Shown in pieces: positions 803-64,000 of a DNA stretch of 64,000 bases. The notes under the pieces were generated by a model. It was not told where the DNA came from. It saw only the letters and a program-made list of their open reading frames with translations, and did no database searches. Numbering within the stretch: position 1 is the stretch's first letter; each line of letters opens with the position of its first letter. The translations under genes were made by a program, and so were the position numbers. Origin of the DNA: Demequina sp. NBRC 110057 (GTDB taxonomy: Bacteria; Actinomycetota; Actinomycetes; Actinomycetales; Demequinaceae); the NCBI RefSeq assembly GCF_002090175.1, contig NZ_BBRN01000003.1:558001-622000 (forward strand), given 5' to 3'.

Positions 803-2088
803 CGCCCACCCCCCGTGGGACGCAGGCGCACGCGGTCGATGCGGCGGCCCACCATGCGTTCGACGCGCAGCACTGCCTCGTCGGCGGCGACCTCGTCGCC
901 CACCCGTGCGACGCGGCCGAGGCTCGCCATGATGTAGCCGCCCACTGTCTCGTAGGCGGGAGATTCCGGCAGGCGCACTCCGACGGCCTCGATCACCTCG
1001 TCGGGGCGCAGCACGCCGGGGATCACCCAGTCGCCCGAGGGCATGCGGTGCGCGGCGCTGCGGCGCCTGTCGTGCTCGTCGGCGACGTCACCCACCAGTT
1101 CCTCGACCACGTCCTCGAGGGTGACGAGGCCGGCGGTGCCGCCGTACTCGTCCTCGACGATGGCCGCCTGGTGCCCCAGCCCGCGCAGCTCCAGCAGCAG
1201 GGGCCGCATCCGCATGGTCTCGGGGACCCGGGGGGCGTCGACCATGAGGTCGGTCACCGCTGTGTCGTCGCGCTCGTGGAAGGCCACCCCCACCGCGGCG
1301 CGCAGGTGGACGAGGCCGATGACGTCGTCGAGCCCCTCCCCCAGCACCGGGAAGCGGCTGTGGCCGCTGGCCCGGGCGAGCGACAGGACGTCCGATGCCG
1401 TGGCGTCCCTGGCGAGCGTCGCGAGCCTCGTGCGGTCGGTCATGACGTCGATGGCCGCCAGCTGGTCGAGGTCGATGGTGTTCTTCAGCAGCAGCGCCGT
1501 CGACGGCGCGAGGGTGCCGGCCTCGGCGGACCGCCGCACCAGCGCGGCGAGTTCCTGCGGCGAGCGGCCGCCGGACAGTTCCTCGCGCGGCTCGATGCCC
1601 ATCACCCGCAGGATCGCGTTGGCGCTGCGGTTCAGCAGCGCGATGAGGGGCTTCAGAGCGGTGGTGAAGGCCATCATCCACGGCGACACGAGCCGTGCCG
1701 TCCTGGCCGGGTCCGCGAGCGCGGCATTCTTGGGCACCAGCTCGCCGAACACCATCGAGAAGGCGTTGACGATGATGAGAGACAGGGCGCCCGCGAGGCC
1801 GGCCACGGCGCCGCGCCCCAGCGGGGTCGACTCGAGCGGCAGGCTCAGCAGCTCGACGAGGGCGGGTTGCGCCGTGTATCCCAGGAGGATCGTGGTGAGG
1901 GTGATGCCCACCTGTGCGCCGGAGAGCTGAGTTGACAGGCTCCTGAGCGCGCGCTTGACGCGGCGGTCCTTGCCGGATTCCTGGACGTGGGCGGGATCCA
2001 GCGCAACCAGGGAGAATTCGGCGGCCACGAACACGGCGGTGCCGAGAGTGAGGAGGATGCCGACCCCCACGAGGAGCCATGCGGTCAT
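799..2088 (-). CDS. CNNM/HlyC-CorC family protein with CBS pair and CorC C-terminal domain
   Basis: A 429-residue full-length member of the hemolysin C/CorC (CNNM) family. Residues 1-200 are the DUF21 membrane domain with several hydrophobic helices and the FGELVPKNAAL motif. Residues about 215-335 are a CBS pair ending EDEYGGTAGLVTLEDVVEELVGD, a hallmark of the family. The last 80 residues are a CorC_HlyC domain. The likely role is divalent-cation homeostasis at the cytoplasmic membrane, inferred from the family. It is the first gene of a two-gene leftward operon with a 4-nt ATGA overlap, and it is divergent from the ABC transporter genes. A TATGCT box on the minus strand near 2133-2138 is a candidate -10. 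Confidence 0.93.
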   Translation of the reverse strand: MTAWLLVGVGILLTLGTAVFVAAEFSLVALDPAHVQESGKDRRVKRALRSLSTQLSGAQVGITLTTILLGYTAQPALVELLSLPLESTPLGRGAVAGLAGALSLIIVNAFSMVFGELVPKNAALADPARTARLVSPWMMAFTTALKPLIALLNRSANAILRVMGIEPREELSGGRSPQELAALVRRSAEAGTLAPSTALLLKNTIDLDQLAAIDVMTDRTRLATLARDATASDVLSLARASGHSRFPVLGEGLDDVIGLVHLRAAVGVAFHERDDTAVTDLMVDAPRVPETMRMRPLLLELRGLGHQAAIVEDEYGGTAGLVTLEDVVEELVGDVADEHDRRRSAAHRMPSGDWVIPGVLRPDEVIEAVGVRLPESPAYETVGGYIMASLGRVARVGDEVAADEAVLRVERMVGRRIDRVRLRPTGGGR

Positions 2089-2181
2089 CTCAGGCGACGC
2101 CTCGGTATGTCCATGATCCCGTCAGCATAGCGAGCCCCCGCTAGCATCGGCAGGGTCCGTCGCCCACCAGGAAGGACCGCC

Positions 2182-3096
2182 GTGCACGCCCACCCCATCG
2201 AGGTCCGCGGACTCACCAAGAGCTACGGCGACGTGACCGCTGTCGACGACCTGACCTTTACCGCGCGGCCGGGCCGCGTGACCGGCTTCCTGGGACCCAA
2301 CGGCGCCGGCAAGTCCACGACCCTGCGCATCCTCGTGGGACTCGCGACGGCGACGGCGGGCGAGGCCAGCATCGGCGGCCGCCCGTACGCGGCGATCGCG
2401 CGGCCGGCGGCGACCATCGGGGCGCACTTCGAGGGCGCCTTCCATCCCGGCCGCACGGCGCGGGACCACCTGCGCGTGTACGCGCCGGTGGTCGGGGTCG
2501 ACGACGCGCGCTGCGACGAGGTGCTCGCCATGGTGGGGATGACCGATGCCGCACGCCGCAGGGTGGGCGGCTACTCGCTGGGCATGCGCCAGCGTCTGGG
2601 GCTCGCGACAGCGCTGCTTGGCGACCCGAGCGTGTTGGTGCTGGACGAATCGGCCAACGGCCTCGACCCCGCCGGCATCCGGTGGCTGCGCACCTTCCTC
2701 AGGGACTTCGCCGATGCCGGGGGCACCGTCCTGCTCAGTTCTCACCTCCTGAGCGAGGTGGAGCAGACGGTCGACGACGTGGTCATCATCGCGGGCGGCC
2801 GCCTGCGTCACGAGTCGTCGCTTGACGAGCTGCGGGCCATGACGCGCCCCGGCGTGACGCTACGCTCGCCGGACGCGGAGCGGCTCGCGGCTTTCGTGCG
2901 CGGCCGCTACGACGAGGCGGCCACCGTCGAGACCGCCAACCGCGCCCGCGTCGCGGGGGTCACCGCTGCCGAGGTGGGCGCCGCGGCCTTCGCGGACGGC
3001 CTCGAGGTGCACGGCCTGAGCGAGGAGGGCGAGAGCCTCGAGGACCTGTTCCTCAGACTCACCGCGCCGCTCGAGCCCGCGGGGGTGGCCCGATGA
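2182..3096 (+). CDS. ABC transporter ATP-binding protein
   Basis: A 304-residue ATPase of an ABC-2 type export system. Walker A is GPNGAGKST at residues 38-46, the signature YSLGMRQ begins at 131, Walker B is VLVLDES at 151-157, and the H-loop lies in SSHLLSE near 195. Walker B ends DES where most homologues have DEP, a minor variant. The roughly 90 residues after the nucleotide-binding domain form the extension usual in antibiotic or lipid exporters. GTG is chosen as start because AGGAAGGA lies six bases upstream. The stop overlaps the permease start (ATGA), so the two proteins are co-translated. The substrate is unknown. Confidence 0.93.
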   Translation: MHAHPIEVRGLTKSYGDVTAVDDLTFTARPGRVTGFLGPNGAGKSTTLRILVGLATATAGEASIGGRPYAAIARPAATIGAHFEGAFHPGRTARDHLRVYAPVVGVDDARCDEVLAMVGMTDAARRRVGGYSLGMRQRLGLATALLGDPSVLVLDESANGLDPAGIRWLRTFLRDFADAGGTVLLSSHLLSEVEQTVDDVVIIAGGRLRHESSLDELRAMTRPGVTLRSPDAERLAAFVRGRYDEAATVETANRARVAGVTAAEVGAAAFADGLEVHGLSEEGESLEDLFLRLTAPLEPAGVAR

Positions 3097-3899
3097 CCGC
3101 CGCGCTGCTGTCCGAGGTCCGCAAGATCTCGACCACCCGGCTGTGGTGGGTGCTGCTCGCCTGCATGGTCGTCGGCTCGGGCTTCATGGCCGGCGTGGTG
3201 GCCTTCTCCTTCGCCTTCGCCGACGAGCTCGGGAGCTCGTCCGACGTCTCCGCCGGCATGGACCCGCGCGCCATGGCCACCACCATCTACGGCCTCGCGG
3301 TGTCGTTCGGCTACGTGTTCCCCGCGATCCTCGGCGCGCTCGCCGTGACCGGCGAGATGCGTCACCGCACCATCGACACCACCGTGCTCGCCGACCCGCA
3401 CCGCGGGCGCATCATCGGCGCCAAGCTCGTGGCGGTTCTGCCGTTCGCGGCGCTGTTCGGGCTGGCAGGGATGGCGGCCGCCGTGGCGACGGGCGCGGCG
3501 GGGCTCGCTCTCGCCGACTCCCCCACCTACCTCGACGACCCCGCCATGTGGGGCTCGCTCGGCATGGGAGTGGTCGCGCTCACGGCGTGGGGCGTCGTCG
3601 GCGTCGGGCTCGGCGCCGCGGTGCCGCACCAGGTGGTGGTCATCGTCGCGCTCATCGGCTGGACCCAGCTGGTGGAGCCCATCCTGCGCCTCGTGCTGAG
3701 CCTCATCGAGCCGCTCGCCGGGGTCGCCGCCTACCTGCCCGGCGCGGCCGGCGACGCCATGGTCGGCGCGTCGTTCTATTCGAGCACCGGCAGCGCCGAC
3801 CTCCTCGCGCCGTGGGCAGGGTTCGCGGTGCTCGTGGCGTACGGGGCGATCGCCGCGCTCGTCGGGTGGCTCGTCACGTTCCGCCGCGACCTGTCCTGA
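3093..3899 (+). CDS. ABC-2 type transporter permease
   Basis: A 268-residue integral membrane protein with about six hydrophobic segments, the first beginning LWWVLLACMVVGSGFMAGVV near residue 12. It has the typical ABC-2 permease layout, including the GEMRHRTIDTTVLADPHRGR cytosolic loop after helix two. It overlaps the ATPase gene by four bases and must form the membrane half of the same transporter. No other subunit gene is adjacent, so the complex is probably a dimer of two ATPases and two permeases. The substrate cannot be inferred from the sequence. Confidence 0.9.
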   Translation: MTAALLSEVRKISTTRLWWVLLACMVVGSGFMAGVVAFSFAFADELGSSSDVSAGMDPRAMATTIYGLAVSFGYVFPAILGALAVTGEMRHRTIDTTVLADPHRGRIIGAKLVAVLPFAALFGLAGMAAAVATGAAGLALADSPTYLDDPAMWGSLGMGVVALTAWGVVGVGLGAAVPHQVVVIVALIGWTQLVEPILRLVLSLIEPLAGVAAYLPGAAGDAMVGASFYSSTGSADLLAPWAGFAVLVAYGAIAALVGWLVTFRRDLS

Positions 3900-4003
3900 C
3901 GACGCGCGTCAGGTGTCGACCACCCCCGCGGTGCGACTAGGCTGGGGCACGATCACACTGACGTATCTGACGCTACAGCGCCAAGAAAGCGAGCGGTCCC
4001 GAC

Positions 4004-7903: not shown

Positions 7904-8508
7904 GAAACGTGTTCTTCGTGGGCGACGAGCTGGTCGCCGGCCAGGGCGACCCCAAGGCGCTGGGCTGGACCGGCCGCGTCGCGGCGCGCACCCAGCCGCT
8001 CGCGGAGGACCTGCGCTTCCACACTCTCGCCGTGCCCGGCGAGACCACGGCAGAGCTGTCGAGCCGCTGGGACGAGGAGGCGCTCAGGCGCGTGGGCCCC
8101 GACGGCGTCGGCGGCTCGCAGAACTTCGTCCTGTTCGCCCTCGGCCGCCACGACGTGGAGCGGGGAGTGTCCCCCACCATGACGCGGCTGCACCTCGCGA
8201 ACACGCTCGACCGCGCCTCCGGGCTGGGCTTCCGTGCGATGATCGCCGGCCCGCCGCCCATCGCGGCGGCCGACAAGCGCTCCATCGCGGAGTACGCCGC
8301 CCTCACCGAGGAGGCTGCCGCGCGCCGCGACGTGCCGTTCATCGACATGTACGGGCCGCTCGCACGCCACGAGCAGTGGGCCATGGACATGGACGCCTCG
8401 GGTGGCACCGTTCCGCAGCAGGCCGGCTACGGCCTCATGGCGTGGCTGGTGCTGCACTCCACGTGGCACTCGTGGCTGGGCGTCGAGCCCGCCCGCACCG
8501 AGGCCTAG
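7900..8508 (+). CDS. SGNH/GDSL-hydrolase-fold protein with degenerate catalytic motifs
   Basis: A 202-residue protein translationally coupled to kgd (ATGA overlap). The fold is recognisable as SGNH: block I is VGDEL, then LAVPGETTAEL, then LFALGRHD, and the C-terminus ends QAGYGLMAWLVLHSTWHSWL. The catalytic serine of GDSL is Glu, the block III GxND is GRHD, and the C-terminal DxxH is replaced by DASGGTVPQ, so a classical Ser-His-Asp triad is absent. It may be a non-catalytic or altered-chemistry member. It converges on pilT, and the two stop codons overlap in the palindrome CCTAGG at 8504-8509. The link to Kgd is positional only. Confidence 0.75.
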   Translation: MRNVFFVGDELVAGQGDPKALGWTGRVAARTQPLAEDLRFHTLAVPGETTAELSSRWDEEALRRVGPDGVGGSQNFVLFALGRHDVERGVSPTMTRLHLANTLDRASGLGFRAMIAGPPPIAAADKRSIAEYAALTEEAAARRDVPFIDMYGPLARHEQWAMDMDASGGTVPQQAGYGLMAWLVLHSTWHSWLGVEPARTEA

Positions 8509-9596
8509 GCGATCACTCCCGCGTTGCGCAGCTCGACCGTGAGGTCGTGCGGGCGAGACGCGATGGACAGCGCGTCGTCGAGCGTCACGGTTCCGTCCTC
8601 CACGAGGCGGAACAGGTGCTGGTCGAACGTCTGCATCTTGTAGTACTCGCCCTCGGCGATGAGGTCCATGATGGGCGGCTGGCTCGCGGGGTCGATGATG
8701 GCCTCGGCGATGCGCCCGTGGTTGACCATCACCTCGACAGCGGGGGCGCGGCCGGAGCCGTCTGCCTTGCGGATGAGGCGCTGGGAAACGATGCCGCGCA
8801 GGGTCTCCGCCACCGCGGTGCGCACCTGCCCCTGCTCGTGCGGGGTGAAGAAGTCGACGATGCGGTTGATGGTGTCCTGAGCGTCGACGGTGTGGAGCGT
8901 CGCGAGCACCAGGTGTCCGGTCTCGGCGGCAGACAGGGCGGCGCGCACGGTCTCGATGTCACGCATCTCGCCGATGAGGATGACGTCGGGGTCCTGACGC
9001 ATGGCGCCGCGCAGCGCCGACGTGAAGTCGAGGGTGTCCGAGCGCACCTCGCGCTGCGAGATGATCGCCTTCTTGTCCTTGTGCAGCACCTCGATCGGGT
9101 CCTCGATGGTGATGATGTTGACCTCGCGCAGCGTGTTGACGAGGTCGATCATGGACGCGAGGGTGGTGGTCTTTCCCGAGCCCGTGGGGCCGGTCACAAG
9201 GACAAGTCCGCGCGGCTCGAGCGCGAGGTCGGCGATGACCTGCGGCAGCCCCAGCTCCTCCCACGGCGTCGCGCCCACCGCGACGCGACGGAACACCAGG
9301 CAGTCGGTGCCGCGCGCCACATACGTGTTGACACGGAAGCGGCCCACGCCCGACAGCGAGAAGGCGAAGTCGGCCTCGTGGGTGTCGCGGAACTGCGCGA
9401 CGAGGTCCTCGGGAAGCACCTGCGCGACCATGTTGCGGGTGTCCGCGGGCGTGAGCGGCGGGACCTGGAGCTTGCGCAGGCGCCCGTCGACGCGGATGCG
9501 GGGCGCGGAGCCCACCTTGCAGTGGAGGTCCGATCCGCCGGTCGAGGCAAGGGCGTGCAGGAACGGGATCACGGATACGGGCTGCTGGTCGCTCAC
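8505..9596 (-). CDS. pilT: type IV pilus twitching-motility ATPase PilT-like
   Basis: A 363-residue GspE/PilT secretion ATPase. Walker A is GPTGSGKT at 136-143, the Asp box is IITIEDPIE at 161-169, Walker B is DVILIGEMRD at 204-213, and the His box is HLVLATLHT at 228-236. Length and the early SDLHCKVGSAPRIRVDG segment are typical of PilT rather than PilB. PilT depolymerises type IV pili and powers retraction and DNA uptake in known systems. GTG at 9596 is chosen over a much longer upstream frame because GGAGAA lies six bases before it. No pilin, PilB, PilC or PilM-Q gene is nearby. Confidence 0.9.
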   Translation of the reverse strand: MSDQQPVSVIPFLHALASTGGSDLHCKVGSAPRIRVDGRLRKLQVPPLTPADTRNMVAQVLPEDLVAQFRDTHEADFAFSLSGVGRFRVNTYVARGTDCLVFRRVAVGATPWEELGLPQVIADLALEPRGLVLVTGPTGSGKTTTLASMIDLVNTLREVNIITIEDPIEVLHKDKKAIISQREVRSDTLDFTSALRGAMRQDPDVILIGEMRDIETVRAALSAAETGHLVLATLHTVDAQDTINRIVDFFTPHEQGQVRTAVAETLRGIVSQRLIRKADGSGRAPAVEVMVNHGRIAEAIIDPASQPPIMDLIAEGEYYKMQTFDQHLFRLVEDGTVTLDDALSIASRPHDLTVELRNAGVIA

Positions 9597-9634
9597 GGCT
9601 TCTCCATCGGCATCACACGGCACTTTCTTGAGCG

Positions 9635-9662
9635 AGCGTAAACCCGCCGGTGCCCACGTGAA
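9635..9662 (-). promoter_or_regulatory. candidate promoter of pilT
   Basis: On the minus strand TTCACG (9662-9657) and TACGCT (9640-9635) are separated by 16 bases, giving a start near 9628 and a leader of about 30 nt before the GTG. The match to the housekeeping consensus is moderate. Confidence 0.45.
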
Positions 9663-9721: not shown

Positions 9722-9796
9722 ATGAGCAAGCGAGGCCGCAAGCGCAAGGCGCGCGCCAAGGGCGGAGCCAACCACGGCAAGCGTCCCAACGCCTAA
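9722..9796 (+). CDS. mini ribosomal protein bL37 (AURKAIP1/COX24 domain)
   Basis: A 24-codon gene encoding an extremely basic peptide that begins MSKRGRKRKARAKGG and ends HGKRPNA. It matches the actinobacterial 50S protein bL37 (annotated as AURKAIP1/COX24 domain-containing), which is almost invariant across the phylum. A purine-rich GAAAGGGGG lies just upstream of the ATG as ribosome-binding site. It is followed after about 23 bases by a strong terminator, so it is a monocistronic unit. Confidence 0.93.
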   Translation: MSKRGRKRKARAKGGANHGKRPNA

Positions 9797-9819: not shown

Positions 9820-9845
9820 GCCCGCATCGGTCATCCGATGCGGGC
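9820..9845 (+). terminator. intrinsic terminator after bL37
   Basis: A perfect 11-bp stem (GCCCGCATCGG / CCGATGCGGGC) with a TCAT loop, followed by TTCGT. Each arm contains the heptamer GCATCGG/CCGATGC that recurs across the window. Confidence 0.8.
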
Positions 9846-9875: not shown

Positions 9876-9893
9876 CCGATGCGGCCGCATCGG
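9876..9893. terminator. palindromic hairpin downstream of rsrA
   Basis: An 18-bp perfect palindrome, CCGATGCGGCCGCATCGG, eight bases beyond the rsrA stop codon. It can fold as a 7-bp stem with a GGCC loop and probably helps end the leftward sigR-rsrA transcript. It is the second hairpin within 75 bp built from the CCGATGC heptamer. Confidence 0.5.
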
Positions 9894-9901: not shown

Positions 9902-10138
9902 TTAGGCGCTGGCTGAGCGAATGGACTCGAGGATGCGCGCGCGCATCTCCTCGGGTGCCTTCTGACCGCCCGCGCGGGACGTCAGATTCTTGATGCGCTC
10001 CTTGATTTGGTGCTCCGCCTCGCACGGCGGGCACGTCTTCAAGTGCGCGCCGATGCGCTGCAGCTCGTCCTGGGGAAGCTCGTCGTCGATGTACTCGAAG
10101 AGACGATCCAGCGCCTCTTCACACTCCCTACCCGGCAT
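9902..10138 (-). CDS. rsrA: RsrA-type zinc anti-sigma factor (ZAS)
   Basis: A 78-residue protein with the zinc anti-sigma signature: Cys in GRECEEALDRL near the N-terminus, then HLKTCPPC (HxxxCxxC) in the middle. In actinobacteria such proteins bind the thiol-stress sigma factor SigR/SigH and release it when the cysteines are oxidised to a disulfide. ATG at 10138 is preferred over GTG at 10141 because GGGAGGT lies five bases upstream; it overlaps the sigR stop by one base (TGATG). Partner assignment rests on the motif and on coupling to sigR. Confidence 0.93.
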   Translation of the reverse strand: MPGRECEEALDRLFEYIDDELPQDELQRIGAHLKTCPPCEAEHQIKERIKNLTSRAGGQKAPEEMRARILESIRSASA

Positions 10139-10740
10139 CACGCACCTCCCTTGCTGTCCTTCTGGGCGGCCGGTCGCTTGTCGGTGAACCCGCGCTCGGC
10201 CGCATATTCCTTGAGATTCTCGCGCAGCAGCTTCCTGCCGCGGTGAAGTCGCGACATCACGGTACCCACCGGGGTGTCCATGATCTCCGCGATCTCCTTG
10301 TAGGCGAAGCCCTCGACGTCCGAGAGATAGACCGCCATGCGGAAGTCCTCGCTCAGCGCATCGAGCGCCTGCTTGATGTCGTCATCGCCGATGATGTCGA
10401 GGGCCTGCTGCTCGGCGGACACGAGCCCGCTGCTGGTGTGCTCGGCAGCTGCCGCGAGCTGCCAGTCCTCGATGTTCTCCGCGTCGGAGCGCTTGGGCTC
10501 ACGCTGCTTCTTGCGATACGTGTTGATGAAGGCGTTGGTCTGGATGCGGTACAGCCACGCCTTGAGGTTGGTCCCCGGGGTGAACTTGTCCTGCGCCGCA
10601 AACGCCTTGGCGTATGTCTCCTGGACCAGGTCCTCGGCATCGGCACCGTTGCGCGTCATGCGCAGGGCCGCCGCGTAGAGCTGGTCCATGTACGACAGCG
10701 CCTCGGTCTCGAAATCGAAGTCCTGCACGGTGTCGCTCAT
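10138..10740 (-). CDS. sigR: ECF sigma factor of the SigR/SigH thiol-oxidative stress type
   Basis: A 200-residue ECF sigma factor. Region 2 reads [22 protein letters not shown] and [21 protein letters not shown]; region 4 reads [20 protein letters not shown] and [20 protein letters not shown]. This matches SigR of Streptomyces and SigH of mycobacteria, and the neighbouring RsrA supports it. The start given here is the short form (MSDTVQD), for which no strong ribosome-binding site is visible. An in-frame ATG at 10812 would add 24 residues and coincides with the predicted start of a sigma-R-type promoter. A TAGCGT box at 10759-10754 could serve the short form. Confidence 0.94.
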
Positions 10741-10848: not shown

Positions 10849-10905
10849 GCGATCGGTGACGACGCCCGATGCGCCCGCCCCCTCCCGTACGTCGGGGCAG
10901 GTTGG

Positions 10906-10911: not shown

Positions 10912-10917
10912 AGGGGC

Positions 10918-13771: not shown

Positions 13772-13835
13772 CCGTCAAATGGATCCATTTGTCTCGTCTA
13801 AGGCGATAAAAGAACCAAGTGGATCCAACTGACGG
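13772..13835. repeat. 64-bp GGATCC hairpin repeat, copy A
   Basis: A 64-bp element with arms CCGTCAAATGGATCCATTTG (13772-13791) and CCAAGTGGATCCAACTGACGG (13815-13835, shown without its last base pairing) that are imperfect inverted repeats. The left arm contains the perfect 16-bp palindrome CAAATGGATCCATTTG (13776-13791). It fills the convergent gap between rsgA and the pectate lyase gene. Copy B at 17662-17725 has the same length and aligns without gaps, 47 of 64 positions identical in the same orientation. Confidence 0.8.
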
Positions 13836-20886: not shown

Positions 20887-21003
20887 GACTGACCCCCCGG
20901 TGGATTCCGCCCGATGCCTCGTAAGAATGCCCCGTCGGGCGGCGCCAGGCAACCGCTGTGGACAAGTCGCGGGGGCGCCGGGGCGCCGTGACACAATGAC
21001 GGC

Positions 21004-27788: not shown

Positions 27789-28520
27789 TCACCCTAGCCC
27801 CGATGAGGCACTCGCGCGACCAGCATCGGCGACGGCGAGCACGATCGCCCCGACGACAGGTGTCCCCGCCCCCTCGAGCGCCCGCACGCTCGCCGCGAGG
27901 GTCGCCCCGGTGGTCATCACGTCGTCGGTGAGCACGGCGGCGACGCCGGCCCGCAGGGGCTCCGCGGTGATCGCGCCGGCCATCCCCGCCCAGCGCCGGC
28001 GGGCGGACCCGCCGCGCTGCTCGCCGTGCCCGAGTCGCAGCACTCCCCTCGCGCGCGTGACCTCCAGCCCGGCCTCCGCGAGCCCCGCGGTGGCCGACCT
28101 GGCGAGCAGCGCGGACAGGTCCCTTCCCCTGCGTCGCGCGGCCCCGGGGCGCGAGGGCACGGCCACCACGGCGAGGGACGCCGGCACGTCGGCGAGGGCG
28201 ACCTCGACGCCCCGAGCGGCGCGACGCATCGCGTCTGCGAGCAGGGCGTCGAGGTCGCGTCGTCCCGCGTCCTTCCAGGCCGTGAGGAAGCCGTGCGCGG
28301 GCCCACCGAGCGTCGCGGGCGCCCACACCGGCATCGGCTCTCGCCCCTCGATGTCGAGGCGCGGCGCGAGCGACTCACACCTGAGCGGCTCCTCCCACCA
28401 CACGCACGCGCACTCCTCGCACCAGCGCACGTCCGTGGTCCCGCATCCGGGACACTCCACGGGGATCGCGACCCGTGCGAGGTCGGTCGCGGCGCGCACA
28501 AAAACCGCGAGGGGATCCAT
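27789..28520 (-). CDS. comF: ComF-family phosphoribosyltransferase-like protein
   Basis: A 243-residue protein. An N-terminal zinc-ribbon-like Cys cluster (VECPGCGTTDVRWCEECAC) precedes a phosphoribosyltransferase domain with the PRPP loop VAAVLTDDVMTTGATLAASVRALEGAG. In competent bacteria ComF helps import transforming DNA; in actinobacteria its role is not established. ATG at 28520 is taken because the Cys cluster follows at the usual distance and the upstream extension has no family similarity. It lies 92 bases from lpqB. A small 6-bp hairpin at 27765-27781 follows its stop. Confidence 0.88.
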   Translation of the reverse strand: MDPLAVFVRAATDLARVAIPVECPGCGTTDVRWCEECACVWWEEPLRCESLAPRLDIEGREPMPVWAPATLGGPAHGFLTAWKDAGRRDLDALLADAMRRAARGVEVALADVPASLAVVAVPSRPGAARRRGRDLSALLARSATAGLAEAGLEVTRARGVLRLGHGEQRGGSARRRWAGMAGAITAEPLRAGVAAVLTDDVMTTGATLAASVRALEGAGTPVVGAIVLAVADAGRASASSGLG

Positions 28521-28612
28521 GCCGCGAGCGTGGCCGGGCCCGGCGGGCCGCGTCGACCTCGACGGGCCGATGCCGGTCCGCCTCCCGACCGACGAGGGCC
28601 TGGGGACGACGG

Positions 28613-30334
28613 TCAGCCCGCGTAGGCGACGTCCTCCGTGTCCTTGAGCACGGTGGCCCACGAGGTTCCGGCACGCTCCTCCACGGTGCCGTCCTCGCCG
28701 ACCACGACGAGGGAGGATTCCCCCGACCTGGCGGTCACCGCGCTCGCGTCGCGCAAGGTCACCAGGGCGGTCGTGAAGCCGCCCACGGACGCGAGCCACA
28801 GGGGCGACGCGGTGCCGTCGAGGGGTTCGCCCAGCACCGCGACCGACAGGTTGTCCACCCATGCGATGTCGACGCCCGCCCCCACGCCGGCCCCCACGCC
28901 GAGGGGTTCGCCGATGCCCGTGGGGTTGCCGTCAGCGTCGCGCACGATGGCGGCGATCTCGAGGGAGGCCTGCCCGCCGGCCTTGGACAGGACGGCGATC
29001 CTGCTCCCGTCCCGCGATACCGCGAGGGCCACGACGGTGCGGCCAGTGAGCCACCCGTCTCCGAGGCTGAGCGGCTCGTCGCCCGTCGCGGCCACCAGCA
29101 GGGGCCCGCCCGCCCGCTCCACGGTCCACAACGCGCCATACCTGTCGTAACTGGGCGCGACCAGCCCCGATCCGCCGATGACGGTGGTCGCCTCCGCGAG
29201 CGCGGCGTCCTCGCTCGCCTCCTCGATCGGGGTCATCGATGCGAAGCCGGCGCTCAGCACGGTGGTGGACTGCACTCCCACGCCGTCGATCACGTATGCC
29301 GCCTCGCCGCCGTCATACGACAGCGCCAGGCCACGCGCCGCCTGCGGGACGGCGCCCGCTCCATCGGGAACGGCGAGAGTATTGCCGTCCCACAATCCCA
29401 AACGATCGCCTGCGAGGACCGCGGCGGTCGAGTCCGGCACGGGGGGCTGGCTCAGCGTGATGTCCGCACCGTCGGCGATGGGCAGGCCGCCGATGCGCAC
29501 GTCGACGTCGGTCACGTCCGGCAGCGATCCCAGGGTCATGGTGAGCTGTTCCTCGGCGAGCGCCCGCTCCTGCGGTGTCCCGGCCGACTGCGCCGTGAGG
29601 TCGACCGTGGCGACGCCACCCTCGACCACCACGGACTCGACCGCGAGCGCCGCCGTTGCGGGGAAGCCGGTCACGACCGCATCGGCCAACCATGGGGAGG
29701 GGCCCTCAATCAGTTCGCGCGCCGCCGAGGTCGCGGGGTTGACGCGAGGAAGCCACCGCAGCTCGGGCGTCGCGGTCGTGAGGTCTGGCGTCGCATAGAC
29801 GAGCTGGACGGCACGGAAGAAACTAGTGAAGTTGGCCTCGGAGATGACCACGCCGTCGGACAGCGAGGCGATGCGCCACTGGCCGTCCTCGTCCTGCTCC
29901 ATGCCGAACTCGACGCGCTCAACGGTCTCGTCGGCGGCATCGGTGAGGCGCCCCGACTCGTCAACCGACGCGGCGAGCGGCACCTCGTAGGTCACGGTGG
30001 TGTCCGCCTCATCCCACTCGGGAGCGACGGCGCCGGAGTCATACACGAGGGTGCGGGCGGACGGGTCCCAGGTCGCCGCCGCCTCGGGGGTAAGGAACTC
30101 GCGGGCGACGGTGAAGTCGGAGGCGACACCGCCGGCGGCGGCGGTGAGGAAGCCCGTGACGATCGCCGCCGGCCCGTCCGTGGCACCGGGGCCCTGCACG
30201 ATCGGCTCGAATGGCTCGACCGGGTCCACGTCGGCGTCGCCGGACTCGACCGGGCCCTCGGTGGGGATGGACGAGCACGCGGTCAGCGCGAGCGCGGCGG
30301 CGCCGGCGAGCGCGGCAAGGCGGGACGCACGCAT
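28613..30334 (-). CDS. lpqB: lipoprotein LpqB, partner of MtrAB
   Basis: A 573-residue lipoprotein with a lipobox LTAC near residue 20. A GerMN-type domain lies at about 190-300 (LTMTLGSLPDVTDVDVRIGG), followed by a beta-propeller-like C-terminal half. In mycobacteria LpqB interacts with the sensor kinase MtrB and influences MtrA phosphorylation and envelope growth. The ATG overlaps the mtrB stop (ATGA), giving the conserved operon mtrA-mtrB-lpqB. The C-terminus is shorter on recognisable motifs than the N-terminal half, but the length is normal for the family. Confidence 0.94.
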   Translation of the reverse strand: MRASRLAALAGAAALALTACSSIPTEGPVESGDADVDPVEPFEPIVQGPGATDGPAAIVTGFLTAAAGGVASDFTVAREFLTPEAAATWDPSARTLVYDSGAVAPEWDEADTTVTYEVPLAASVDESGRLTDAADETVERVEFGMEQDEDGQWRIASLSDGVVISEANFTSFFRAVQLVYATPDLTTATPELRWLPRVNPATSAARELIEGPSPWLADAVVTGFPATAALAVESVVVEGGVATVDLTAQSAGTPQERALAEEQLTMTLGSLPDVTDVDVRIGGLPIADGADITLSQPPVPDSTAAVLAGDRLGLWDGNTLAVPDGAGAVPQAARGLALSYDGGEAAYVIDGVGVQSTTVLSAGFASMTPIEEASEDAALAEATTVIGGSGLVAPSYDRYGALWTVERAGGPLLVAATGDEPLSLGDGWLTGRTVVALAVSRDGSRIAVLSKAGGQASLEIAAIVRDADGNPTGIGEPLGVGAGVGAGVDIAWVDNLSVAVLGEPLDGTASPLWLASVGGFTTALVTLRDASAVTARSGESSLVVVGEDGTVEERAGTSWATVLKDTEDVAYAG

Positions 30335-32794: not shown

Positions 32795-33940
32795 GTGCCG
32801 AACAGCGAACCGCAGGACCCCACCGCGCCCCCGCAGTGGCCCGGCGCCTCACCCGAGGCCGCCCCGCCAGCATGGGTAACGCCAGCATCGGGCACACCTG
32901 CTCAGGAGGGCGCCTCACCTGCGGCCGCGCCGCCCTCGGCAGCGGCGGCGCCGTCCGGCCACGCTGTTCCCGCGCAGGGCGCCCCCACGTATCGCTCGTG
33001 GCAGCCGGGGATCCTCCCGCTGAAGCCGTTGTCTTTCGGGGATTTCCTCGCCGTCCCCTTCCGCGCGATCCGGTTCAACCGCGCCGTCATGCTGGGTGCC
33101 CCGCTGCTCTTCACCCTGGTCTCGGCGGTGCTCACCGTCGTCACGATGTGGGTCGCGTTCAACGACGCGGGCCTGTTCGGATGGTCGGCGACACCCACGG
33201 TGTCCACCCTCGGCGGCGAGTCAATCGCCCTCATCGTCATCGCGGTCGCGAGCCTGCTGCTCGCCGACCTGTTCTCGAGCTCGATCATCGCCCCCGGCGT
33301 GGCGCGCGCCGTGCTGGGCGAGCGCATCGGCATCGCGGTCGCGTGGCGCCAGGTGCGGCGCCGCCTGGGCTCGCTCGTCCTCCTCTACCTGCTCACCTTC
33401 GCCGTCGTGTGCGTGGTGGGGGCCGTGGCGCTGTCGCCGCTGCTTCTCCTCATCGGGGCCGATGGCGGCGTGGTGGCGCTCGCGGTGCTGCTCACCATCG
33501 TCGCGTGCCTGGCAAGCGTTCCCGTCTTCGTCGCGATCGTCGCCCTGCAGGGCATCGCCCGCGCGCTCATCGTGCTCGAGGACGTGGGGATCGGCGCCGG
33601 CCTGCGGCGTGCGTTCGGGCTCGTCAAGGGCCGCCTGTGGTGGACGATCCTCATCGTCTTCGTCGCGGGCGTCCTCATCAACATCGTGGCCGCCGTGGTG
33701 CAGCAGGTGGGACAGATTGGCGCCCTCGCCGCGAGCTTCCTCGCACCCCAGGCGGAGGTGGTCGTCGGCATCGCCTACTTCCTCGCGATCGGCCTGTCGT
33801 ACGCGGTCTCGGCGCTCGTGACCTACTCGTACCTCGGTTCCGTCTACGCGCTGCTCTACATCGACCTGCGTATGCGCCACGAGGGCTTCGACATCGACCT
33901 CGCCAGGGCCGCAGAGGCGCGGGCCGCGGGACGGGCCTGA
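32795..33940 (+). CDS. membrane protein with glycerophosphodiester-phosphodiesterase membrane-type domain
   Basis: A 381-residue protein. Residues 1-70 are a Pro/Ala-rich cytosolic stretch; the segment PGILPLKPLSFGDFLAVPFRAIRFN follows, a hallmark of this actinobacterial group, and then about six to eight transmembrane helices. No soluble catalytic domain is present, so the enzyme name of the family describes only the membrane part. GTG at 32795 is preferred to ATG at 32789 because GGGAGG is six bases from the GTG but directly abuts the ATG. It starts the MoxR cluster. Confidence 0.82.
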   Translation: MPNSEPQDPTAPPQWPGASPEAAPPAWVTPASGTPAQEGASPAAAPPSAAAAPSGHAVPAQGAPTYRSWQPGILPLKPLSFGDFLAVPFRAIRFNRAVMLGAPLLFTLVSAVLTVVTMWVAFNDAGLFGWSATPTVSTLGGESIALIVIAVASLLLADLFSSSIIAPGVARAVLGERIGIAVAWRQVRRRLGSLVLLYLLTFAVVCVVGAVALSPLLLLIGADGGVVALAVLLTIVACLASVPVFVAIVALQGIARALIVLEDVGIGAGLRRAFGLVKGRLWWTILIVFVAGVLINIVAAVVQQVGQIGALAASFLAPQAEVVVGIAYFLAIGLSYAVSALVTYSYLGSVYALLYIDLRMRHEGFDIDLARAAEARAAGRA

Positions 33941-40080: not shown

Positions 40081-40119
40081 CGCCGCATCGGCCCTCCCGT
40101 GAGGGCGGCCGATGCGGCG
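40081..40119. terminator. bidirectional terminator between the RDD gene and ahcY
   Basis: CGCCGCATCGGCC and GGCCGATGCGGCG form a perfect 13-bp stem; an inner CCCTC/GAGGG pairing extends it. It lies between two convergent genes. Each arm again carries the GCATCGG/CCGATGC heptamer. Confidence 0.8.
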
Positions 40120-55174: not shown

Positions 55175-55180
55175 GGCTGA

Positions 55181-55186
55181 ACCCTA
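55181..55186 (-). promoter_or_regulatory. leaderless -10 box of purK
   Basis: TAGGGT on the minus strand, then six bases (TCAGCC), then ATG at 55174. Confidence 0.5.
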
Positions 55187-55208
55187 CCCGCGACTACGCT
55201 CGTCACTC

Positions 55209-55733
55209 GTGACGATCATGGACCGGCTACGCGCCAGGGCGGCGGAGTTGCTGCGCTTCGGCGCGGTAGGTCTCGCCGGGATCGTCGTGAACCTCGGCGT
55301 GTTCAATCTCCTGCGGTTGGGGCCGCTCGCGCCACACGCGGAGGTGGCCGGCGACGACGACCGGGTGGTCACTGCGAAGATCATCGCGACCCTCACGTCA
55401 ATCCTGTTCGCGTGGGTCGCCCACCGCGGGTGGACCTTTCGTGGCCCGAGCCGTCACCGCCCGATCGCGGAGCTCGCGCTGTTCGGGCTCATCAATGCTG
55501 TCGCGCTCGCCATCGAAGCGGCGGTGGTAGCCGTGAGCCACCACGGGCTCGGGTACACGTCCCTCATGGCCGACAACGTCGCGTCGGTGCTCGGCATCGG
55601 CCTCGGCACCATTGCGCGCTACGTGGGCTTCTCGCTATTCGTGTTCTCGTCGGAGGCCGATGCCCCTCACGTGAGCGCCGCCGAGGTCGCCTCCGATCCC
55701 GCCGCGCCCCTCGACCGCCTCGACGACGACTAG
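55209..55733 (+). CDS. GtrA-family membrane protein
   Basis: A 174-residue protein with four transmembrane helices in the GtrA pattern (LLRFGAVGLAGIVVNLGVFNLL first, then ATLTSILFAWVAHRGWTFRG with the conserved NF/RxWTF-type motif, and IARYVGFSLFVF last). GtrA proteins flip polyprenyl-phosphate-linked sugars. With the GT2 and LCP genes nearby it could move a lipid-linked sugar, which is inferred. The GTG start is eight bases after TACGCT (55195-55200); ATG at 55218 is an alternative. Confidence 0.85.
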   Translation: MTIMDRLRARAAELLRFGAVGLAGIVVNLGVFNLLRLGPLAPHAEVAGDDDRVVTAKIIATLTSILFAWVAHRGWTFRGPSRHRPIAELALFGLINAVALAIEAAVVAVSHHGLGYTSLMADNVASVLGIGLGTIARYVGFSLFVFSSEADAPHVSAAEVASDPAAPLDRLDDD

Positions 55734-55806
55734 GGGGCAGCGCGGCGCGCGCTCCCTGGCAGGCGGTGGGGCAGGCCGCGGGTCCAGCGGTGGGTCCGGA
55801 GGTGGG

Positions 55807-57345
55807 TCAGGCGTGGAGCAGTTGGTTCAGGGCTGCGTCTTGTTCGGGTGTGGGATAGGGGTCGTCGAAGCGGTGGGGGTTGCTCGCGTTCCAGGCGGCG
55901 ATGAGTGCCTCGTCGCCTCTCCAGTCGTCGTCTGGTGTGGGTGGAGGGTCGAGGTCAATCTCGAAGGCCGCTCTACCACCGACGAACCGTTGGTGTTCGT
56001 CGCTGCCCGGGGGTGTGAAGTACACCTGCCCGGCGATCACATCGATGCCCCACCCGTAGCGGTGCACGTCATGGTGGCAGCGGGTGCACAGCATCACGCC
56101 GTTATCGATCGTGGTGGCTCCACCGTGTTCCCACCAGCGAATGTGGTGCGCCTCGCAGTGGGAGGCAGGAGCACCACACCTGGCACAACCCCCATCCCGG
56201 TCCAGCAGCGCGATCCTTTGGGTGCGGCTAAACCCGCGATGTTCGGGGCTTTGGTGAAGCACGTTGCCATGAGCATCGACGAACTGGTGGATGGAGGCAG
56301 CATCCCCACAGCACATCCCGAGAGACTCGAGGGAGACCGGCGTCTCGATCCCGTCGATCGTGCCCACACCGGTGCGACGCTCGATATCGCGCTGGGTCAC
56401 CCGCACCACCATCGTGGTGCGAATCCCCGAGCGATGCATCTTGCCGCACCCCAACGCGTGACGAGCCAACTCGTGAAGCGCATCCGCCCGCATCTGACCC
56501 ACCGAACGCGTATCAGTCACACCGTCACCGCTCGCGCTGGGGTCATTGGGTCGTGACTGGTTGCGGATGTCCCTCGTGGCCAGCTGTTCGAGGACCTCGA
56601 TCACCGGGGCGGCGGTCACGGCGTCCATCTGCCCGTGGAAGACCACCACACCACCGAGCTTTTCTTTCCACCACACATACCGCTCGTCGTGATGGCGTCG
56701 TTCGCGCTCCACCAGCCGCTCATGGTCGAGCTTCGAGATCACATTGGCCACCACGCGCTGCATCCGGTGCACGCTCAGACCGTGAGCCTTGTCCACCAGC
56801 TTGCGCTCCACGTCGTGCAGGTAGGAGTCATCGACGCGACCGGCCACCAGGTTGAGCCCCTCGACGATGATGCCCGCCACATCGACCGACAAGTCACCAT
56901 CGGCCTGCGCCCGCGCCACACACGGATACTTCGGCCGCATCACCGGCGGGCGATCGGAGCCCGGTGGGACCGCCCCGGAAGGCAGCGGGCCGGGCTCACC
57001 ACCGGGCTGCGACGTCACGTCGACCGGCACCGGTGTGAACGCGTCACCTGCCTCCATCGACCGCTTCGCACGCTGCACACTGCCACCGGTCAACGACGAG
57101 ATCAGATTGCCCGCATTGCCATGCCCCTCACGCCGGGCGAAACCACCACCAGGCTCCTCCGGAGCACTACGCCGCTTCACCTCGGCCGCATACCGCGCAG
57201 CAAGCGTCCCCGCGATCTTCTCCAACCGCGCGGCAGCCTCCAACTGATCCCATAACTCATCCCGACCCAGCGCGGCAACATCCACGGACATCAACTCCCC
57301 CATCAGGGAGCCAATCCGCTCAAACATCGCCGTCGTCCTCACCAT
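55807..57345 (-). CDS. DUF222 / HNH endonuclease signature protein
   Basis: A 512-residue protein of the actinobacterial 13E12-like family: an N-terminal DUF222 region (DELWDQLEAAARLEKIAGTLAARYAAEVKRR) and a C-terminal HNH domain with CARCGAPASHCEAHHIRWWEHGG and LCTRCHHDVHRYGW. Such genes occur in many copies in Micrococcales and may be mobile, but their biology is unknown. Codon use contains more A/T-ending codons than neighbouring genes and the window-wide GCATCGG heptamer is absent from it. It converges with gtrA across a 73-bp GT-rich gap that holds no clear hairpin. Confidence 0.9.
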   Translation of the reverse strand: MVRTTAMFERIGSLMGELMSVDVAALGRDELWDQLEAAARLEKIAGTLAARYAAEVKRRSAPEEPGGGFARREGHGNAGNLISSLTGGSVQRAKRSMEAGDAFTPVPVDVTSQPGGEPGPLPSGAVPPGSDRPPVMRPKYPCVARAQADGDLSVDVAGIIVEGLNLVAGRVDDSYLHDVERKLVDKAHGLSVHRMQRVVANVISKLDHERLVERERRHHDERYVWWKEKLGGVVVFHGQMDAVTAAPVIEVLEQLATRDIRNQSRPNDPSASGDGVTDTRSVGQMRADALHELARHALGCGKMHRSGIRTTMVVRVTQRDIERRTGVGTIDGIETPVSLESLGMCCGDAASIHQFVDAHGNVLHQSPEHRGFSRTQRIALLDRDGGCARCGAPASHCEAHHIRWWEHGGATTIDNGVMLCTRCHHDVHRYGWGIDVIAGQVYFTPPGSDEHQRFVGGRAAFEIDLDPPPTPDDDWRGDEALIAAWNASNPHRFDDPYPTPEQDAALNQLLHA

Positions 57346-57400
57346 GCCTCCATCAGATCACCGACCACTGACATCGCGGCCGCGGGATCGATAAGAGAAG

Positions 57401-58705: not shown

Positions 58706-58711
58706 CGGCCG

Positions 58712-59389
<678 letters not shown>

Positions 59390-59395
59390 GGGGCA

Positions 59396-59401
59396 ACGAT
59401 A
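59396..59401 (-). promoter_or_regulatory. leaderless -10 box of the response regulator gene
   Basis: TATCGT on the minus strand, then six bases, then ATG at 59389. Confidence 0.5.
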
Positions 59402-59495
59402 CCCGTGGGCCGGGTCTTTGCAACGACGCACGGCGCGGGGGCGGCCGATGCGCCTGCCAGGGCTCACGCGGCACACGCGGATACGCTGGGCGACC

Positions 59496-61616: not shown

Positions 61617-61681
61617 GCGCCTGTCCACAGGGCATCGCCGGCTCCGAGCGCACCCGGTGCGCCGCGTGCCACGGTGGCGGC

Positions 61682-64000
61682 GTGATCGTCACCGACCCCT
61701 CCGGCACCGACCTCGAGATCAGGCCGGGCACGCCCGCAGCCGTGATCGCCGAGGCGCTGGGGGTGCCGGTGCTGTGGTGTGGGCAGGTCCTCCTCGACGG
61801 CGCCCATCCCGCGGGGGTGGCGCCGCTCGTGCACGGCGCGAGGCTCGGTACGGGTCCCGGCGTGGGGTGCACTCCCCTGAGCGGGCCCTCCCTCGAGGTA
61901 GTCCGGGGGCCCGATGCTGGCGCCACCACTCCCTTCGGCGCCGCCGGGGTGGTGGTCGGGCGGGCGGGCGACTGCGACCTCGCCATCGACGACCCCGCGC
62001 TGTCCGCGCGCCACGCGCGCCTCCTTCCACGCCGGCGGCGAGGGGTGAGGGACCTCGGCTCGACCAACGGGCCCGGACCGTTCCGGCGCGGCTGGAGGGC
62101 CGACCATACTGTCGGCCTTGGGCGCACGGAAATCGCCTGGCACGACGCGACGCGGGGCGACGAGGACGAGCCCGCCGGCGGGCGCGCGCGGCCGCGGCTC
62201 GCGATGATCGCGGGGTCCGCGGTCAGCGCCGTCGCCCTCGCCGCGGTCACAGGCCGGTGGTGGATCGCCGCGGTGATCATCGGCGTCGCCGGCGCCGTGG
62301 CGCTCGCCCCGTGGGCCCGCTCACGGCTCGCGGTGCGGGCGCCGGGAAACCCCGCGCCGCGCACACCGGCGGGGCCCCTCGCGATTCGGGGCGACGGCAC
62401 CTGGGCGCGCGGCTACGCGCGGGCGGTCGCGCTCGACCGTGGCCGCCGGCTCGAGGGAGCACCCCGCGAGCCGTGGATGAGATGGCTCCAGGGACCCGGC
62501 CCCGAGGACACGGTGGTGCTGCTGGGGCGAGACGCCGCGGTGCCCTCGTGGTGCTCCACCACCGTCGACGCCTCGGCGACCGGCGTCACCGTCACCGCCG
62601 CCGCGAGCCGGAGCTCACCACCCCTGCGGATTACCGCGGCTACCGCCGAGACCGTAGCGCGGCGCCTGGCCGGCACCAGGCACACACCTGGCCTGCCACG
62701 CGCCGTCGCGTGGGCGGATCTCGCGCCCGTGCCCGGTGCGGCCCCCGCTGCCCCTCCGGCCGGAACTGGAGGCCGGGGACGCCGGGTGCTGCGCGCCTGC
62801 ATCGGCCAGGGGCAGGAGGGCGCCGTCACCCTCGACCTCGACGAGGACGGCCCACACGTCCTGGTCGCCGGCACCACCGGCGCGGGAAAGTCGGTCGCTC
62901 TGGAGACGCTCGTGGTCGCGCTCGCCGACGGGGCCGGCCCCCAGGATCTCGCGGTGGCCCTCATCGACTTCAAAGGCGGCGCAGGCCTCGCCGGCTGCCG
63001 CGACCTTCCCCACGTATGCGGCATCCTCACCGACCTCGACGGCGCCCTCGCCACGCGGGCCCTCGAGGGGGTCGCGGCGGAGCTGCTCACACGCAAGGAG
63101 GAGCTCGCGGCGCGCGGCCTGACCTCGATGCACGAGTGGGAGGCCTCAGGCGACGCTCCCCCACGCCTGCTCGTCGTGATCGACGAGTACCAGGAGATCA
63201 CCGCGCTGCTTCCCGACTTCGTGCCGCAGATGTCGCGGCTTGCCGCCCAGGGCCGGTCGCTCGGCATGCACCTGGTGATGGCCACCCAGCGTCCGGCCGG
63301 TGCCGTCACTCCCGCCGTGCGCGCGAACGTGGGGGCGACGATCGCGCTGCGAGTGGCCTCGGAGGGCGAGTCCCGGGACCTGCTCGGGGTGCCCGATGCC
63401 GCCGCCCTCCCCCGCGACTGCCCGGGCAGAGCGATTCTGGTGGCGGGAGAGCGCCGCGTGACGTTCCAGACCGCGACGCCCATGGCGACGCCCAGCCCCG
63501 CGGTGTCACCGGTCGGGGCCGCGCCCGCGAGGCCGCGGCTGCTCTCACACCGAGTGCGGCAGCGCTGGGCCGACGCCCCTCGTCCCTCTCCCCTGTGGCT
63601 TCCACCGCTCCCGACTGCCCTCCCGCTCGCCGCGGTCGTGGGCGGGGATGCGGACCGGACGCAGGACGCCGCGTGGGTGGTCGCGCTCGCCGACCTCCCG
63701 AGCCAGCGCAGGCAGGATCCCATCAGGTGGAACGCCCAGGACGGTCCCCTCGTGGTCGTCGGGCCACGCCGCGCCGACCGCGCGGCGGCCCTCGCCGCGG
63801 TCGTGTCCCAGGCAAGAAGCGCGGGCCGGCGGGCCGTCGTCCTGCCCGCCGACCCGCGGGAGGCGGCCCGGACCCTGGCGCTTGCCGCGCGCGGCGACGC
63901 CCTCCTCGTCATGGACGATGCCGACGCGACTCTCACCGCCCTCGCGGGCGTCGACGACGGCGGCGCGCTCGACGCCTGGAACGACCGCCTCGGCAGGGGC
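61682..64000 (+). CDS. FHA-domain FtsK/SpoIIIE (EssC/EccC-like) ATPase, 3' end cut by window edge
   Basis: An open frame of 773 codons from GTG at 61682 to the window end without a stop. An N-terminal FHA domain (VVVGRAGDCDLAIDDPALSARHARL from about residue 88) is followed by two transmembrane helices (about 175-215) and an FtsK/SpoIIIE ATPase with Walker A GTTGAGKS (397-404), LIDFKGGAGLAGC, Walker B LLVVIDEYQE near 500, and ATQRPAGAVTPAVRANV. This matches type VII secretion ATPases of the EssC/EccC group, in which several ATPase domains follow in tandem. No WXG100 gene is in the window, so the assignment to T7SS rests on architecture. Confidence 0.85.
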   Translation, partial: MIVTDPSGTDLEIRPGTPAAVIAEALGVPVLWCGQVLLDGAHPAGVAPLVHGARLGTGPGVGCTPLSGPSLEVVRGPDAGATTPFGAAGVVVGRAGDCDLAIDDPALSARHARLLPRRRRGVRDLGSTNGPGPFRRGWRADHTVGLGRTEIAWHDATRGDEDEPAGGRARPRLAMIAGSAVSAVALAAVTGRWWIAAVIIGVAGAVALAPWARSRLAVRAPGNPAPRTPAGPLAIRGDGTWARGYARAVALDRGRRLEGAPREPWMRWLQGPGPEDTVVLLGRDAAVPSWCSTTVDASATGVTVTAAASRSSPPLRITAATAETVARRLAGTRHTPGLPRAVAWADLAPVPGAAPAAPPAGTGGRGRRVLRACIGQGQEGAVTLDLDEDGPHVLVAGTTGAGKSVALETLVVALADGAGPQDLAVALIDFKGGAGLAGCRDLPHVCGILTDLDGALATRALEGVAAELLTRKEELAARGLTSMHEWEASGDAPPRLLVVIDEYQEITALLPDFVPQMSRLAAQGRSLGMHLVMATQRPAGAVTPAVRANVGATIALRVASEGESRDLLGVPDAAALPRDCPGRAILVAGERRVTFQTATPMATPSPAVSPVGAAPARPRLLSHRVRQRWADAPRPSPLWLPPLPTALPLAAVVGGDADRTQDAAWVVALADLPSQRRQDPIRWNAQDGPLVVVGPRRADRAAALAAVVSQARSAGRRAVVLPADPREAARTLALAARGDALLVMDDADATLTALAGVDDGGALDAWNDRLGRG

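Follow-up and report, generated by a model that had tools for sequence, protein, structure and literature searches.

A candidate DNA-uptake sequence with lineage dialects in the actinobacterial genus Demequina

The DNA analysed here, which we call the window, is a stretch of 64 kb from Demequina sp. NBRC 110057 (G000:C3:558001-622000, in a genome of 2.73 Mb and seven contigs). It encodes a PilT-type retraction ATPase together with many other genes, and carries within genes and in the spacers between them 89 copies of the heptamer GCATCGG, the core of the nine-base word GCATCGGCC with which this work is concerned. A previous sequence-only reading of the window had reported 49 copies of GCATCGG and 40 of CCGATGC, figures that our recount on the forward strand reproduced exactly, and had pointed out a likeness to DNA-uptake sequences as well as the presence of pilT and comF. 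The pilT gene is confirmed by its T2SSE match (E 1.5e-52), while comF stays doubtful with a weak Pfam match under the cut-off. Compared with named genomes, this PilT finds its best matches in Demequina, which places the window in that genus (Demequinaceae, Micrococcales, Actinomycetota); the D. litorisediminis protein is 95% identical, and the same species is nearest to the window's genome on a tree of pilT DNA.

The word in the window and across the genome

The 89 heptamers of the window compare with a mean of 25.1 (standard deviation 5.77, maximum 38) in 100 dinucleotide shuffles and with 30.5 expected from a third-order Markov model, under which GCATCGG is the most over-represented 7-mer there. 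GCATCGGCC is the top 9-mer of the window, with 37 copies against 4.1 expected from the same model, and each of its one-letter neighbours has 0-15 copies. Whole-genome counts were obtained by word search, while more detailed statistics draw on 724-732 kb sampled from the four large contigs, about 27% of the genome. Genome-wide the heptamer occurs 1869 times in forward and 1828 times in reverse orientation (3697 in all), the reversed control word reaching 332 + 396 = 728; GCATCGGCC has 2018 copies and its reversed word 110. In 732 kb, 554 copies of GCATCGGCC stand against 47.1 expected from the Markov model. The excess over a third-order Markov model is therefore borne out in the window and in the sampled part of the genome, and the whole-genome counts concur.

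The inner core of the word is exact and its edges are tolerant. The base after the heptamer is C in 80% of 1009 copies and the next one is C in 68%. Against the 554 intact copies in 732 kb, each variant changed at position 2 has 1-5 copies and each one changed at position 5 has 0-14; overall, one-letter variants number 0-15 at positions 2, 5 and 6, 19-87 at positions 1, 3, 4, 7 and 8, and 51-141 at the last position. Orientation in the sample is balanced (526 vs 483), and in 33 stretches of 20 kb we found 18-37 heptamers each, the most lopsided having 13 vs 5 (p 0.1). The near-equal use of both strands, noticed before in the window, thus holds for the genome, and the sampled stretches are without skew, the replication origin not being located. 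Spacing is Poisson-like, the variance per 20 kb being close to the mean. The 5.5-kb contig L096 (56% GC) has no heptamer, and the longest word-free stretch of the own-genome sample (5.4 kb) lies over pilin genes.

Codon choice and dipeptides do not explain this excess, since the coding DNA of the window contains 74 heptamers against 24.2 ± 3.5 (maximum 37) in 300 shuffles of synonymous codons within genes. The same shuffle, applied to the complete genes of a simple gene model (673 genes in 724 kb), gave 247 ± 11 heptamers and 52.5 ± 4.3 whole GCATCGGCC, to be compared with 805 and 414 observed; the excess over a codon-shuffled model holds accordingly in both the window and the sample. Outside genes the word is denser still, GCATCGGCC reaching 2.05/kb in noncoding and 0.65/kb in coding DNA, a threefold difference, with a control word at 0.26 vs 0.25. 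In the window, 14 heptamers lie wholly and one partly inside about 4.65 kb of noncoding DNA, as tallied with a crude gene model whose starts are uncertain and which misses small genes. The sequence-only reading had listed 11 intergenic copies in 2.5 kb; intergenic copies are confirmed with these different figures, and most of its positions are right, a few being off by one or two bases (20911, 28567, 40085 and 59445 are correct).

Dialects in Demequina and words in other families of the order

Comparison with relatives, which the earlier reading had recommended, revealed lineage-specific dialects. In 36 other Demequina genomes the heptamer ranges from control level to 6.5 times control. A second word, GCATCGTCC, divides the 37 Demequina genomes: 13 have 929-1700 copies and the remaining 24 have 49-275, compared with 36-203 in 22 genomes from elsewhere in the order. 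The highest GCATCGGCC counts are found outside those 13. A third, AGCGTCGG, exceeds its reversed control in G009 (1656/146), G003 (810/197), G012 (645/268) and G032 (473/156). With cut-offs of our own choice, namely at least 929 GCATCGTCC for the T dialect, at least 472 GCATCGGCC in genomes that are not T for the G dialect, and AGCGTCGG at 2.4 times its reversed control or more for the A dialect, 32 of the 37 genomes were assigned (15 G, 13 T and 4 A) and five were not. The weak G members G007 and G020 (472 and 584 GCATCGGCC) fall in the same range as the T members G021, G011 and G002 (664, 487 and 465), and G017, with 409, is narrowly below the G cut-off. Of the cultured strains, D. litorisediminis NBRC 112299 has the G dialect and D. 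phytophila NBRC 109391 the T dialect.

De novo counts in four genomes low in the heptamer placed at the top CGCATCGTCC in G025 (66 vs 1.3), GCATCGTCC in D. phytophila (32 vs 1.7), AGCGTCGGGC in G009 (45 vs 1.1) and AGCGTCGGC in G003 (37 vs 5.6). Synonymous shuffles likewise left an excess of GCATCGTCC in G025 (53 vs 8.7 ± 3.3), AGCGTCGGG in G009 (27 vs 3.9 ± 1.8), AGCGTCGGC in G003 (32 vs 5.3 ± 2.0) and GCATCGGCC in G034 (14 vs 3.0 ± 1.3), and the density in spacers is also above that in coding DNA in G025, G009 and G034. The dialect words have the core GC[AG]TCG[GT] in common.

The dialects follow the clades. On the pilT tree the three labels need 2 changes, the minimum possible, compared with a mean of 9.1 for shuffled labels; this tree has 30 rows, of which 24 are labelled G, T or A (L019, L046, L048 and L049 being labelled G by heptamer counts alone) and six (L013, L024, L032 and three outgroups) are without a counted label. 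The relative age of the dialects cannot be read from this tree, which is rooted at its midpoint and has all three outgroup rows on its T side. Most named Demequina loci carry an inverted pair of the G heptamer upstream of pilT, namely 9 of the 12 labelled G and 8 of the 9 labelled T, and the whole T word occurs within 560 bases in 6 of 9 T-labelled and 0 of 12 G-labelled loci. An alignment of the pilT region was built from 14 G and 13 T sequences (T rows L022, L023, L026 and L056 and G row L008 being placed without a genome count), yielding 33 site-versus-clade rows at 31 columns. The other clade has neither word, often with a gap, in 25 of these rows and one of the words in 8. Column 3258 is the one place where several G species carry the G word and most T rows (10 of 13) the T word; at the majority of the other columns the words are confined to a single clade.

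Outside Demequina we scanned ten genomes of the order for over-represented k-mers, over 40 kb each, an extent that is no proof of absence. Clear words emerged in two of them: CGAGGCATCCG in G056, with 86 copies vs 1.3 in 240 kb (stretches L203-L204 and L235-L244), and CGGCATAC in G052, with 138 vs 6.6 in 240 kb of one contig (L199-L200 and L245-L254). The 40 kb from each of the other eight contained no word of similar strength, the nearest being ACGACGCCG (G038) and GGTGAGCA (G042). Both words are strand-balanced and exceed synonymous shuffles (GAGGCATCCG in G056, 84 vs 2.8 ± 1.8; CGGCATAC in G052, 110 vs 9.0 ± 2.7), and CGGCATAC and CGAGGCATCCG both contain GGCAT, which the most frequent form of the G word in Demequina also has.

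Pilus, competence genes, prophages and other features

The genes for PilB, PilC, PilD, PilM and a second T2SSE ATPase form one pilus operon at C4:489.6-502.5 kb, together with those for three proteins with N-methyl pilin leaders and for a 518-aa protein without Pfam match; after pilM, two unmatched genes occupy the pilN/pilO position, and aroC comes next. The pilin part of the operon (C4:493632-503927, i.e. L102:13632-20000 and L145:1-3927) has one heptamer in about 10 kb and a lower GC content (0.65-0.67), as if it were recently exchanged or diversifying. Genes for a ComEA-like protein (SLBB and HHH domains) and ComEC adjoin each other, and PilM and ComEC are each found in 36 of the 37 Demequina genomes. 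In G009 (C1:2039413-2040200) and G026 (C1:423579-424363) ComEC is split, by mutation or sequencing error, though both genomes are word-rich. The window's genome also has a T2SSF gene pair of the Tad kind at C5:114883-116285, so that the PilM-type pilus may not be its only surface filament. In the complete chromosome of D. sediminis (NZ_AP027736.1; L029, L030), pilT is matched twice with equal identity, the two sites lying about 66 kb from each other across the ends of the record, a possible duplication at assembly ends.

The gene of an orphan pilin (153 aa) is flanked by an acetyltransferase gene and metE. Of 30 loci retrieved for this pilin, our own included, 23 have metE next to it, two of these 23 pilins (L218, L224) being nearer to PilA; the seven others comprise four next to pilC, a PilA-like one and two (L217, L226) that are not placed. 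In the other metE-linked loci metE has 80-93% identity, except for one short match of 73%; the pilin has 34-45% identity to our own, apart from 69% in the closest relative, and is a fast-diverging protein. A Cys pair is kept in 25 of 25 aligned pilins (the 23 metE-linked ones and the two not placed), with His-Pro-x-Gly in between in 19. A protein search of 5.8 billion sequences returned 8 relatives, and the match of a 22-sequence profile to solved type IV pilins lies chiefly in the N-terminal helix that they have in common. By analogy with ComP, we propose the pilin beside metE as the candidate receptor of the word.

Prophage DNA was considered as well. A phage portal gene is present in 9 of 44 Demequina genomes and absent from that of the window. 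Prophage stretches, whose ends were not mapped, were read in two of the nine; all ten scanned proteins matched phage families, and terminase, portal, major head and head-tail adaptor occur in both stretches. The host's 9-mer has 0 copies in these 16 + 12 kb (28 kb), where 6.75 + 4.46 = 11.2 would be expected from each genome's own average density. This absence fits the behaviour of an uptake sequence.

The features of the window are collected in Table 1. The 24-aa, very basic reading frame located just 5' of the first hairpin is absent from the crude gene model and resembles actinobacterial ribosomal protein bL37. A DUF222-HNH endonuclease protein is encoded at 55807-57345 on the reverse strand. 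A distinct 10-mer, AAATGGATCC, has on either strand 23 copies in 732 kb against 0.1 expected (window positions 13777, 13781 and 17711, and also L084, L090, L098, L107, L110, L112 and L115); it is often paired, 4 or about 40 bases apart, and could be the paired operator of a regulator.

Table 1. Copies of the heptamer and associated genes in the window
Feature	Position	Strand	Remarks
All 89 GCATCGG copies	1392..63399	49 +, 40 -	word count; 37 extend to GCATCGGCC
Inverted pair GCATCGG-tcat-CCGATGC	9824..9841		terminator-like hairpin 3' of 24-aa basic ORF (open reading frame; 9722-9796 +)
Inverted pair CCGATGC-ggcc-GCATCGG	9876..9893		hairpin adjoining 3' end of gene 9902-10141 (-)
Inverted pair GCATCGG...CCGATGC	40085..40115		spacer of 17 bases; convergent genes on both sides
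Noncoding GCATCGG	2144..2150	+	crude gene model
Noncoding GCATCGG	10866..10872	-	crude gene model
Noncoding GCATCGG	20911..20917	-	crude gene model; within longer possible ORF
Noncoding GCATCGG	28567..28573	-	crude gene model; within longer of two possible starts of phosphoribosyltransferase ORF
Noncoding GCATCGG	32885..32891	+	crude gene model; within longer possible ORF
Two noncoding copies, GCATCGG (55594) and CCGATGC (55657)	55594..55663		
Noncoding GCATCGG	59445..59451	-	crude gene model; within longer possible start of response-regulator ORF
PilT-type retraction ATPase	8505..9596	-	T2SSE, E 1.5e-52; belongs to the pilus apparatus to which we ascribe the motif
Phosphoribosyltransferase-domain ORF	27789..28862	-	presumably the comF of the earlier reading; weak Pfam match, E 1.6e-5, 24.7 bits (cut-off 26.3)

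A DNA-uptake sequence and competing explanations

Taken together, the excess of the word, its exact core and strand balance, its enrichment in spacers and there in inverted pairs, the dialects, the absence of the 9-mer from two prophage stretches and the presence of a pilus with ComEA and ComEC support the pattern of a DNA-uptake sequence that the sequence-only reading had suggested, and we consider it probable that GCATCGGCC, with its core GCATCGG, serves this function in the present Demequina species, with dialects in other lineages. We propose that the type IV pilus, built from the C4 operon and served by the PilT of the window, would extend out of the cell, exposing a minor pilin, in all likelihood the metE-linked orphan, that would recognise the 9-mer in duplex DNA whatever its orientation. 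Retraction by PilT would then draw the DNA in, ComEA would pass it to ComEC, and one strand would enter and recombine into the chromosome. According to this proposal tags would accumulate because fragments bearing them are taken up more often, this biased exchange building them up where the cost is least, in spacers and in synonymous codon choices. Receptor and tag might drift together within a lineage until a new dialect such as GCATCGTCC or AGCGTCGG arises, leaving the lineages isolated for transformation.

The closest parallel is the DNA-uptake sequence (DUS) of Neisseriaceae, which according to PMC3630211 and PMC3868556 is read by the minor pilin ComP and has eight dialects. Like the Demequina word, it comprises about 9-12 bp, is non-palindromic, reaches one to three thousand copies per genome, and has lineage dialects that agree with phylogeny around a common inner core. 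A type IV pilus and ComEC are shared too, and some spacer copies form inverted repeats (PMC2346458). The words themselves are unrelated (GCATCGGCC vs neisserial ATGCCGTCTGAA), the Demequina host is a Gram-positive actinobacterium, and its system is known here from sequence patterns and genes, so that the candidate receptor is likened to ComP by analogy. The uptake signal sequence (USS) of Pasteurellaceae, as described in PMC12616744, has a 9-mer core, two dialects with a common inner core and high genomic enrichment, and its predicted receptor is the minor pilin PpdA/ComN; it differs in its unrelated words (AAGTGCGGT / ACAAGCGGT) and in its Gram-negative hosts, in which uptake bias was measured. 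Natural transformation in Micrococcus luteus occurs via Tad/Flp pili with ComEA/ComEC, and no uptake word is mentioned in the accessible part of that paper (PMC6370729). Demequina shares with M. luteus the order (NCBI taxonomy), ComEA and ComEC and, in the window's genome, a Tad-kind T2SSF pair (C5:115 kb), but a PilM-type pilus is proposed in Demequina instead of the Tad pilus.

Several observations weigh against an uptake function. Five Demequina genomes (G001, G005, G013, G017 and G027) have no clear dialect by our cut-offs, with intermediate GCATCGGCC counts in G017 (409, reversed 46) and G013 (282, reversed 55), and four of the five have PilM and ComEC, neither being found in G005 (85% complete). 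T-dialect genomes retain 134-664 GCATCGGCC, so that replacement is incomplete. The word of G003 is not denser in noncoding DNA (0.33 vs 0.31/kb), ComEC is in two pieces in G009, the strongest AGCGTCGG genome, and the two prophage stretches hold six GCATCGG heptamers (5 and 1). The candidacy of the receptor draws on position, divergence and pilin type; its structure model is weak (mean predicted local distance difference test, pLDDT, 68), and a fold search with this model gave no match at E <= 0.001. G052 and G056, of other families, carry comparable words without PilM, and G037 and G040, two of ten PilM-bearing genomes of the order outside Demequina, showed no such word in 40 kb each. The literature searched, which excluded preprints and included few subscription papers, contained no uptake or transformation experiment on Demequina and no report of its natural competence.

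Among the alternatives, the word might be read inside the cell by a sequence-specific enzyme, as a genome-maintenance element (a Chi-like recombination site, a methylation mark or a HIP1-like iterated element) drifting between lineages. Any element of this kind would be consistent with the abundance, exactness and even spread of the word, and with the occurrence of comparable words in G052 and G056 without a PilM-type pilus. HIP1 of cyanobacteria (GCGATCGC) is likewise a highly iterated short word, but it is a palindrome, whereas the Demequina word is not self-complementary and has orientation and dialects. Chi shows an orientation bias along the direction of replication and KOPS a strand skew along replichores, unlike the balanced orientation found here, measured without locating the origin. 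Moreover, three spellings in one genus together with a higher density in spacers are not expected of a recombination site. We regard this intracellular role as unlikely.

A transcription terminator or hairpin element spread through spacers would agree with the pairing of the word: noncoding DNA contains 17 inverted and 2 direct pairs within 30 bases (p 0.0007), compared with 17 and 15 in coding DNA, and the inverted G pair upstream of pilT is kept in nearly all T-labelled loci. The six paired copies described before in the window are real, forming the hairpin-capable inverted pairs 9824/9835, 9876/9887 and 40085/40109. However, inverted pairs take in 34 of 170 noncoding and at most 34 of 839 coding copies, and the density is alike in divergent (3.18/kb), codirectional (2.87/kb) and convergent (3.09/kb) spacers, which indicates that termination is not the general role. 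The earlier claim of pairing inside terminators thus stands for the inverted pairing and fails as a general rule, and an origin as a terminator element appears highly improbable.

Codon and amino-acid usage in a genome rich in GC, through Ala-Asp-Ala and Gly-Ile-Gly, could also have produced the word as a side effect. In favour of this, the frame xGC ATC GGx is near the shuffle expectation (209 vs 148), the lowest excess of all; yet all six combinations of orientation and frame exceed it, from 1.4-fold to nearly 10-fold, with the GAT-containing frame at 377 vs 49.8 and one sparse combination at 3 vs 1.5. Together with the still higher density in noncoding DNA this leaves hardly any room for such an origin, which the synonymous shuffles in the window and in the 724-kb sample refute. 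A KOPS segregation motif or another replication-strand word, which the even genome-wide spread would allow, is contradicted by the strand counts given above and by the lack of any significantly lopsided sampled stretch (the replication origin not being located), and its probability is negligible.

Having preferred an uptake sequence to these alternatives, we can ask how far it extends. G052 and G056 have T2SSF pairs resembling Tad pili, which are also present in five of six other genomes of the order checked (G038, G041, G042, G044 and G046), without a comparable word in 40 kb. Either another filament may serve in G052 and G056, as in Micrococcus luteus (PMC6370729), or the role of their words may be unrelated to pili. 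It is tempting, if rather doubtful, to suggest that tagging of self DNA is an ancient or recurrent trait of Micrococcales, in which Demequina would read its dialects by an orphan type IV pilin and other families (G052 with CGGCATAC, G056 with CGAGGCATCCG) by another surface filament such as a Tad pilus.

According to PMC12616744, Neisseriaceae and Pasteurellaceae are the sole families known to have such tags, and the literature that we searched likewise reports no uptake word outside them. Since tags have been described from these two proteobacterial families alone, Demequina would be the first instance in a Gram-positive group and, if uptake is confirmed, an independent third case. The finding, if true, points to natural competence in Demequina. 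It would also provide at least three dialects in one genus, with strains available in culture collections (NBRC names), and thereby a direct test of why tags evolve, of how receptor and tag change together, and of whether transformation barriers split species.

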